The notes beneath the pieces are model-generated. The model worked only from the letters and a program-made list of their open reading frames with translations, did not search any database and had not been told where the DNA came from. A program made the position numbers and the translations under genes. Positions 150 to 41,580 of a DNA stretch of 64,000 nucleotides are shown here, piece after piece (the first letter of the stretch is position 1; each line of letters starts with the position of its first letter). This stretch comes from Lentilactobacillus kribbianus (lineage in GTDB: Bacteria > Bacillota > Bacilli > Lactobacillales > Lactobacillaceae): positions 434,001 through 498,000 of the forward strand of contig NZ_JABEQQ010000002.1 of the NCBI RefSeq assembly GCF_013184075.1. The letters are read 5' to 3'.

Positions 150-203
150 ATAAAAATAAAAAGTCAACCGAACATGAACATGTAATTCATGTAGGGTTGA
201 CTA
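150..203 (-). terminator. Terminator of the msrB-msrA operon
   Basis: On the minus strand a stem AGTCAACC pairs with GGTTGACT. An inner stem (ACATGAA with TTCATGT) extends it, and a T-rich tract follows at 150-161. It lies about 75 bases beyond the msrA stop. The candidate dif site lies between msrA and this hairpin. Confidence 0.75.
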
Positions 204-234
204 TTTTCTTACTAAAATGGTAAATTGATATTTT

Positions 235-262
235 ACTTTACATAATATATATTATACGAAGT
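235..262 (-). other. dif: Candidate dif site (XerC/XerD recombination)
   Basis: The plus strand reads as arm ACTTTACATAA, centre TATATA, arm TTATACGAAGT, which gives 28 bases. Read on the minus strand it matches the Firmicutes dif consensus as I recall it at every position except one, near the end of the XerD-side arm. It is intergenic, just downstream of msrA. Almost every gene to its right is transcribed towards it, as expected on the right replichore next to the terminus. A XerC-type recombinase gene lies at 11949-12878. Identification is from memory of the consensus. GC skew over the whole chromosome would settle it. Confidence 0.78.
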
Positions 263-278
263 TAGTCAATTTACTTTT

Positions 279-11948: not shown

Positions 11949-12878
11949 TTAATCATCATTATTATTTCGTGGAAAAAATTTTTGATAATCCTGCAAGAGG
12001 TGCTCTTTAGTAACGTGTGTATAAATTTGAGTTGATGATAAACTACTATGGCCCAATAGTTCCTGAACCGTTCGCATATCAGCACCATTGTTGAGCATGT
12101 GGGTTGCAAACGTATGTCGTAACATATGAGGATGAATACTTGTTGTCATCGAGCTTCGTTTAACAATTTGATTTAAAACATATTCAATCCCACGGGATGT
12201 CAATGGCTTGCCTTGACTATTTACAAATAGATTATCATGTTTTACCTGATTTTTTGCCATTAATTTGCTACGTCCTTGATTTAAATAAGTGATCAAAGCA
12301 TCGTGTGCATAACGACCAAACGGAATATAACGTTCTTTGTTACCTTTTCCATAAACTAATAATAATTTTTGAGTTAAATTAACACTACTTAGTTTTAAAT
12401 TGGCACATTCACTAACCCGAATTCCAGTTCCATAAAGAATTTCTAATAATGCTGTATCACGTTGAGCTAGTTCAACTCTACCATTATTAGCTGCAGCTTC
12501 AAATAATACCTGCATTTCATTTTGAAAGAAGAATCTGGGTAGTTGTTTATTATGCTTCTTTAATTGAACAAACTCAAACGGATTTTGCTTAATAACCTCA
12601 TTTTTTTCCAAAAAATTAAAAAATGATCTTAATGCGGAGACACGCTGTGAAATGGTACTCCAAGCGTAATCGTGATCGTATAAATAACTTAAGTACGCTT
12701 CCACTGTTAAATTATCCGTATTGGCCAATAATAAGTGCTCATTTATTTCTGAATTTGATAAAAAAGTTTGAAAACTATCTAACGCTTCCTGATAGGATTT
12801 AATTGTTTCTGGTGAATACTGCCGGTCACTTTTTAAATATTTTAAAAACCATTTTATCTGTTCATTATTTTCTATCAT
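11949..12878 (-). CDS. xerC: Tyrosine recombinase XerC (CodV type)
   Basis: This site-specific recombinase acts with XerD at dif to resolve chromosome dimers. The N-terminal SAM-like core-binding domain (about residues 1-100) precedes the catalytic domain. Catalytic residues are all visible: Arg in GTGIRVSE, Lys in YGKGNKERYIP, His and Arg in HMLRHTF, His in LLGHSSL and Tyr in QIYTHV. At 309 residues and sitting next to hslV-hslU it is the chromosomal enzyme rather than a phage integrase. The candidate dif site lies 12 kb away in the same window. Confidence 0.94.
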   Translation of the reverse strand: MIENNEQIKWFLKYLKSDRQYSPETIKSYQEALDSFQTFLSNSEINEHLLLANTDNLTVEAYLSYLYDHDYAWSTISQRVSALRSFFNFLEKNEVIKQNPFEFVQLKKHNKQLPRFFFQNEMQVLFEAAANNGRVELAQRDTALLEILYGTGIRVSECANLKLSSVNLTQKLLLVYGKGNKERYIPFGRYAHDALITYLNQGRSKLMAKNQVKHDNLFVNSQGKPLTSRGIEYVLNQIVKRSSMTTSIHPHMLRHTFATHMLNNGADMRTVQELLGHSSLSSTQIYTHVTKEHLLQDYQKFFPRNNNDD

Positions 12879-41217: not shown

Positions 41218-41246
41218 TTGCATTTTAGAACGTTTGTTCGTATAAT
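41218..41246 (+). promoter_or_regulatory. Promoter of the YolD-like gene, overlapped by an SOS box
   Basis: TTGCAT (41218-41223), a 17-base spacer and a perfect TATAAT (41241-41246) lie 31 bases before the ATG. The spacer contains the LexA-type palindrome GAAC-GTTT-GTTC at 41228-41239. Confidence 0.82.
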
Positions 41247-41266
41247 GAAAACACAAACAAATGTTC
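41228..41266. promoter_or_regulatory. Two LexA (SOS) boxes
   Basis: Box 1 is GAACGTTTGTTC (41228-41239), a perfect match to the Gram-positive GAAC-N4-GTTC core, between the -35 and -10. Box 2, AAACAAATGTTC (41255-41266), has one mismatch and lies just after the -10 box. Together they bracket the -10, so LexA binding should block transcription. Confidence 0.78.
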
Positions 41267-41277
41267 GAGGTGAAAAA

Positions 41278-41580
41278 ATGCAAAATCAAAAGAGCAACTT
41301 AGCAAACATCACTCAATTTGCCCAACAACAATATCAAAAATTATTCAGTCCTATTAATAATATCGAATTCAAGCAAATGCCACTTTTTCAAATTGAATTA
41401 TTTTTACAACAAACCATTCATGATCAGTTGATCGTTCAACTAGATTTTAAAGATCAATCTAATCCAATTATTGGACAAATTTTCAAATTAAATCAAGAAA
41501 GATACTTAATTACTACCCAAAATAAAAAAATCAATAAACTACTTTTTATTAATGAAATTAAAGCCATTCATCAAATTTAA
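41278..41580 (+). CDS. YolD-like family protein under SOS control
   Basis: This 100-residue protein matches the YolD-like pattern: an Ile-Glu-Phe segment, KQMPLFQIELFLQQTIHDQ, then a small beta fold ending in FINEIKAIHQI. YolD-like proteins are usually linked to Y-family polymerases or other SOS genes in Firmicutes, though their exact activity is not known. The ATG at 41278 is preferred: GAGGTG lies just before it and the promoter ends upstream, while the longer open frame would start inside the promoter region. It is one of the few plus-strand genes and faces recN convergently. Confidence 0.72.
   Translation: MQNQKSNLANITQFAQQQYQKLFSPINNIEFKQMPLFQIELFLQQTIHDQLIVQLDFKDQSNPIIGQIFKLNQERYLITTQNKKINKLLFINEIKAIHQI

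Follow-up and report, generated by a model that had tools for sequence, protein, structure and literature searches.

The window analysed is a stretch of 64,000 nucleotides (G000:C2:434001-498000, window base 1 being C2:434001) from the 1,509,660-base, 3-contig assembly G000 of Lentilactobacillus kribbianus. It opens with a dif site beside msrA, the gene for peptide-methionine (S)-S-oxide reductase, and holds a xerC gene further in. Just left of the window edge lie a third recombinase gene, xerS, a LexA-type box and a perfect dyad (Table 1). Labels of the form G stand for genomes and g for genera in a set of 397 Lactobacillaceae genomes, and L for named loci.

Table 1. Features of the dif-xerS locus and the Xer genes of the genome (window positions unless preceded by C2)
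Feature	Position	Strand	Description
dif	235-262	minus	ACTTTACATAA-TATATA-TTATACGAAGT; 11-6-11 layout, 28 bp
XerC arm of dif	262-252	minus	ACTTCGTATAA; named by analogy with known dif sites
dif centre	251-246	minus	
XerD arm of dif	245-235	minus	TTATGTAAAGT; named by analogy with known dif sites
msrA	279-800	minus	TIGR00401, 202.8 bits (cut-off 108.1); adjoins dif
xerC	11949-12878	minus	TIGR02224, 348.5 bits (cut-off 335.15)
xerD	C2:372822-373721	plus	Over curated cut-off; outside the window
xerS	C2:432420-433484	minus	NF003462, 467.7 bits (cut-off 267); 354 aa; left of the window
LexA-type box	C2:433496-433507		GAACATACGTTT; xerS promoter region; only 0-mismatch match of the pattern in the genome
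XerS-type dyad	C2:433570-433601		ACTTTCATTAAAA-CAAGCA-TTTTAATGAAAGT; perfect 13-6-13, 32 bp; between xerS and dif

Scoring of dif relied on a degenerate Firmicute pattern. The site matches it on the minus strand with 0 mismatches, and chance was rejected since none of 100 dinucleotide shuffles of the window equalled this match. The description of the site as a near-perfect Firmicute dif in an earlier note on this DNA is thereby borne out, its score of 27 of 28 positions hanging on the choice of consensus. When up to 3 mismatches were allowed the site was the sole match in the whole genome, so that the genome-wide search proposed in the same note brought up no second dif. Also as claimed there, the site is intergenic; 16 bases separate it from the end of msrA. 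Within Lentilactobacillus a single dif with at most 3 mismatches is found in 22 of 24 genomes and is letter-identical in 14 of these 22; the two genomes without it are 86% and 88% complete.

Several minor features surround dif. It is flanked by a 9-bp inverted repeat (GTAAATTGA/TCAATTTAC, window 220-228 and 266-274) with a T run at 275-280; by eye, this repeat is absent from the 21 other dif-bearing genomes of the genus. A terminator-like hairpin (AGTCAACC...GGTTGACT) lies left of dif at window 162-202, so that the 3' end of the msrA transcript may include dif. Window 253-264 (TATACGAAGTTA), which takes in the right dif arm with its edge, equals 12 letters of the arm of phage P1 loxP.

The placement of the window at the replication terminus, inferred earlier from dif, is supported by base composition. 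GC skew is negative in 16 of 16 4-kb blocks of the window and positive in 32 of 35 such blocks over the 140 kb to its left. In the 283 kb of contiguous sequence the cumulative skew reaches its maximum at C2:432056, 2.2 kb from dif (C2:434235). A skew switch far from the site, which by the earlier note would have refuted the placement, is thus not observed. In 10-kb samples of the rest of the genome, the other change of sign falls on contig C1, between the 550- and 600-kb samples. Assuming an end-to-end join of C1 and C2, which the skew signs suggest, dif would lie about 770 and 720 kb from the presumed origin on the two arms. The genome thus carries a unique intergenic 28-bp site of 11-6-11 layout at the skew switch together with XerC and XerD, and no difference from the XerCD/dif system of Firmicutes was found in it. 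A dif at the terminus is in itself ordinary, and this is a plain member of that system, unusual only in the neighbouring XerS module. The original reading of the locus is therefore supported but was incomplete, the window edge having hidden a recombinase gene and a dif-like site 0.6-1.8 kb to the left.

A phage-integrase domain search of the genome gave 8 matches, three of which are Xer proteins by curated cut-offs. The XerC-type gene already noticed in the window is one of them, and xerS starts 750 bp from dif. Across an alignment of 11 XerS sequences, the Arg, Lys, His, Arg and Tyr characteristic of tyrosine recombinases are invariant. A further His, found in both difSL-type XerS rows, is replaced by Gln in the nine other rows, which separates the protein studied here from the difSL type. 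Two short tyrosine-recombinase genes lie on contig C3 (17,341 bases), perhaps a plasmid.

The xerS start codon is 85 bp downstream of the dyad, which lies 633 bp from dif and 1.5 kb from the skew maximum; a scan of 20 stretches of the genome at up to 6 mismatches matched it alone. When both strands of 283 kb were compared with the commonest difSL read from streptococcal loci (CTTTCCGAAAAACTATAATTTTCTTGAAA), the dyad scored highest, with 21 of 29 positions identical without gaps and runners-up at 20 of 29. Of 1000 Markov-resampled intergenic regions, one reached 21 and two held a perfect 13-bp repeat with a spacer of 4-8. The same 283 kb contain 9 perfect 13-6-13 repeats, several of them terminator-like, so symmetry alone is no proof. 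Taken with its position and its resemblance to difSL, the dyad is a likely XerS target and a candidate recombination site. Dyad matches with 3 mismatches in G000 (C2:406178), G015 and G008 were taken as chance.

A close known relative of the module is XerS/difSL of streptococci and lactococci, whose site has an 11-bp centre and unequal arms according to a 2017 review (PMC5357621). XerS of that system has about 356 aa, close to the 354 aa of the protein found here, which passes the curated cut-off, and in both systems the site is just upstream of xerS and near the terminus. The sites differ in that difSL has 31 bp and an 11-bp centre, whereas the dyad, as read here, has symmetric arms, a 6-bp centre and another sequence. 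A further difference is that XerS replaces XerCD there, whereas the Lentilactobacillus genome keeps XerC, XerD and dif. XerH/difH of epsilon-proteobacteria, as outlined in the same review (PMC5357621), is similar in having a single recombinase and a site near its gene, but XerH is distant in sequence (5jjv matches with 35.7 bits only). A precedent for the combination is Lactobacillus helveticus DPC 4571, where XerC, XerD and XerS occur together, with xerS near the skew switch, and were regarded as a possible intermediate (Kono et al. 2011, PMC3025954). Neither dif nor an XerS site was found there, whereas both are proposed here. The Xer/dif literature surveyed, largely open-access and covered in part, names no XerS site for Lactobacillaceae.

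Within Lentilactobacillus, XerS passes the cut-off in 20 of 24 genomes, two of these genes being broken. DNA upstream of xerS in this set includes sequences identical to those of named Lentilactobacillus loci, which points to this genus. The 19 XerS-positive genomes other than G000 bear a different dyad, AACTTAATAAAA-n6-TTTTATTAAGTT (0-3 mismatches), at most 1.9 kb from xerS. Dyads of this type are missing in three of the four genomes without XerS, the reversed control of the pattern matching in 3 of the 24 genomes. The fourth (G014) has a single 2-mismatch match, 51 kb from dif, which was taken as chance, the reversed control also matching in that genome.

Across the family, XerS passes the cut-off in 137 of 397 genomes and 14 of 40 genera, and 120 further xerS loci were fetched, leaving out the XerS-positive fragment G092. 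A strict rule (AAAA-n6-TTTT, at least 7 of 9 outer pairs symmetric, at most 450 bp upstream of xerS) found a site in 60 of 139 xerS loci, one g12 locus having been skipped for insufficient flank, as against 0 of 1390 resampled regions; it found 0 sites in the downstream control regions where the flank sufficed. The 37 distinct sites give 452 symmetric cells out of 481 (shuffled mean 334, maximum 355), a count inflated by the relatedness of the sites and by the rule itself, which requires symmetry, and hence weaker than it appears. Up to four symmetric pair types occur per position, and changes of whole arms between lineages keep the dyad (ACTTTCATT/AATGAAAGT, AGTGTTGTT/AACAACACT, AACTTAATA/TATTAAGTT). 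A 14-bp core, AAAACTATAATTTT, is common to difSL and the dyads of g54, g6 and g39.

Whole genomes were searched as well. At up to 2 mismatches, 49 of the 397 genomes contain the pattern CATTAAAACTATAATTTTAATG; all of them are XerS-positive, and the pattern is found in 0 of the 260 without XerS (Fisher p 2.7e-26, relatedness ignored), its reversed control matching in 9 genomes. The match in G390, on a contig other than that of xerS, may be chance, and this genome has its own site at xerS. In g6 one site each was found in 18 of 18 XerS-positive genomes, 1.5-77 kb from xerS in 17 of them, and in 0 of 4 XerS-negative ones. In g37 one AACTTAATAAAA-type site is present in 12 of 12 XerS-positive genomes (10 exact, 2 with 2 mismatches), kilobases from xerS or on another contig in 10, and in 0 of 3 genomes lacking XerS; this search is noisy at 3 mismatches, where 4 of 38 XerS-negative genomes outside g37 match and the reversed control matches in 17 of 80. 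By all rules together, 110 of 137 XerS-positive genomes have a site, 10 of them contributed by the AACTTAATAAAA-type search and 100 by the others. The 27 without one by these rules include g12 (5/5), g35 (3/3) and Dellaglioa, and about four Levilactobacillus sites among them narrowly miss the rule. As a separate observation, the g54 genomes G352, G393 and G414 have two, two and three over-cut-off XerS genes, and two of the three copies in G414 have different upstream dyads.

The XerS of G000 is 79-82% identical to 17 Levilactobacillus records and 53-57% identical to five named Lentilactobacillus, among the 80 records kept in a scan of named genomes. Were the dyad the XerS target, the version seen in G000 would be expected in Levilactobacillus too. 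This prediction held in part. In 12 of 17 Levilactobacillus loci, CTACTTTCATTAAAACAAATATTTTAAAGATAGTAG or a variant precedes xerS, and a Levilactobacillus-type dif (ACTTTCGATAA, or the same with one letter changed) lies 0.75-1.2 kb away; the other 5 have neither dyad nor dif within the fetched flanks. By eye, neither was seen within the flanks of the Dellaglioa locus, of one of two Companilactobacillus loci and of 6 of 8 Secundilactobacillus-named loci, the last being a count over seven loci of that name with the dyad in S. paracollinoides alone. The genome studied here combines a dif of Lentilactobacillus type with an XerS module of Levilactobacillus type. XerC of this genome shares 56% identity with XerC of the congener G017, and XerD 71% and 63% with XerD of the congeners G014 and G012. 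An identity of about 81% for XerS across genera, as against these lower values for XerC and XerD within the genus, points to acquisition of the xerS module by horizontal transfer between genera. When L083, L102, L108 and G000:C2:432420-434262 are compared, xerS is found to the side of the XerC arm of dif in Lentilactobacillus but to that of the XerD arm in G000 and Levilactobacillus, an arrangement that may reflect more than one arrival beside dif. In L109 and L120, the loci of Levilactobacillus suantsaii and Companilactobacillus versmoldensis, the DNA upstream of xerS is much alike and the fetched flanks hold no dif and no dyad, which may mark a moving copy.

The box upstream of xerS belongs to a short pattern, with 25 genome matches at up to 1 mismatch against 12 for the control. 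Boxes with 1 mismatch start 27-65 bp before three classic SOS genes, namely ruvA, uvrB and that of DNA polymerase IV. GAACN4GTTC is the LexA box of Bacillus subtilis and GAACN4GTTT is among the boxes of Clostridioides difficile (PMC4234289). When GAACN4GTTC-like boxes (at most 1 mismatch) were sought within 130 bp upstream of xerS, they were found in g32 (24/24), g4 (6/6), g37 (9/12), g12 (4/5) and g54 (12/28). They are rare in g1 (1/19, G000 itself), g6 (1/18) and g42 (1/6) and absent in g39 (0/10), g9 (0/3), g3 (0/3), g35 (0/3), g41 (0/1) and g48 (0/1); the downstream control regions gave 3 in 139. The box, a further difference from XerS/difSL, is thus present upstream of xerS in several genera of the family and suggests that xerS may be under SOS (LexA) control in these. 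Several genera with XerCD retained have it often, and it is nearly missing where XerD and dif have been lost, a distribution that would suit a damage-inducible auxiliary. This is no rule, however, as most xerS genes of g1, g42 and g9 lack the box although XerCD is retained there.

With at most 3 mismatches, and bearing in mind that a diverged dif could escape the pattern, dif is missing in 53 of 397 genomes: 36 of 137 with XerS and 17 of 260 without, 8 of the latter 17 being less than 90% complete. Genes of the XerC/XerD class were counted in 80 genomes, namely 69 of the 137 XerS-positive ones (all 36 without dif and 33 of the 101 with it) and 11 XerS-negative ones. Among the 36 genomes with XerS and no dif, 31 have no over-cut-off XerD; at E 1e-55, XerC/XerD-class matches are lacking altogether in 13 of these, and the other 18 have one weaker match. 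The remaining 5 keep two genes of this class, as do 33 of 33 sampled genomes with both XerS and dif and 11 of 11 sampled genomes with dif and no XerS. XerS with neither dif nor an over-cut-off XerD occurs in members of g6, g9, g35, g39 and g48 and in one g54 genome. XerCD alone, both systems, and XerS without XerD coexist within one family, and the genome of the window is in the two-system state.

These data are probably best accounted for by a dif served by XerCD and an adjoining module of XerS/difSL type, with the dyad as its likely target and a possible boost from the SOS response. XerC and XerD would resolve chromosome dimers at dif. XerS protomers would bind the two arms of the dyad, and in a chromosome dimer the two dyads would recombine across their centres in the manner of XerCD at dif, a reaction presumably dependent on FtsK. 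XerS would be raised after DNA damage, when recombinational repair yields more dimers. In pneumococcus XerS takes part in chromosome dimer resolution (PMC4287498), which by homology supports such a role here.

Joint loss of dif and XerD in XerS-positive lineages of five genera could also mean that XerCD/dif is already idle in two-system genomes and that XerS does the work, as was suggested for L. helveticus by Kono et al. (2011, PMC3025954). This is improbable, as 14 of the 22 dif-bearing genomes of the genus share a letter-identical dif and all 22 match within 3 mismatches, and every sampled genome with both XerS and dif keeps its two XerC/XerD-class genes.

Less probable still is that XerS and the dyad form a mobile or parasitic module near the terminus, without a role in dimer resolution. 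Patchy spread (137/397), the signs of transfer between genera and the extra xerS copies of some g54 genomes would fit such an element. Against it, 31 of the 36 XerS-positive genomes without dif have no over-cut-off XerD, and in the 13 without any XerC/XerD-class match XerS is the sole Xer candidate. The site also lies at or near the skew switch in three genomes: in G000; in G017, a congener with both systems, where the local skew maximum falls 61 bp from dif and 0.7 kb from the dyad; and in G090, which has neither dif nor an over-cut-off XerD, where the dyad is 2.0 kb and xerS 15.7 kb away from this maximum. In G195 the local skew peak is not at the dyad. The stretches examined in G090, G017 and G195 were of 140, 120 and 120 kb.

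The least probable of the three alternatives, a dyad acting as an operator or RNA hairpin in the xerS leader and not as a recombination site, would suit most Lentilactobacillus loci, where it comes straight after a -10-like box, some 90-120 bp ahead of the start codon, but the dyad lies upstream of promoter-like sequence in G000 and Levilactobacillus (by eye), it resembles difSL, and the usual distance of kilobases between site and gene in g6 and g37 means that it is not simply an xerS operator.

Beyond the reading of XerCD at dif with an adjoining XerS module at this locus, a wider proposal appears evenly balanced: that many lactobacilli combine a housekeeping XerCD/dif with XerS and co-evolving symmetric sites, SOS-induced in several genera, and that the module moves with its site and has repeatedly replaced XerCD/dif. 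The locus bears on how a near-universal two-protein machine gives way to a one-protein machine with another site. A dif beside what looks like a second separation system may show how one such machine supplants another. The proposed site tracks XerS across 397 genomes, and food bacteria show all three states.

Elsewhere in the window, at 41228-41266, two LexA-type boxes lie before or within the start of a plus-strand ORF (41245-41580, 111 aa). A lexA gene beside them was considered and rejected, the nearby minus-strand gene being that of guanylate kinase. The ORF is divergent from the latter and is possibly an SOS gene of unknown function.
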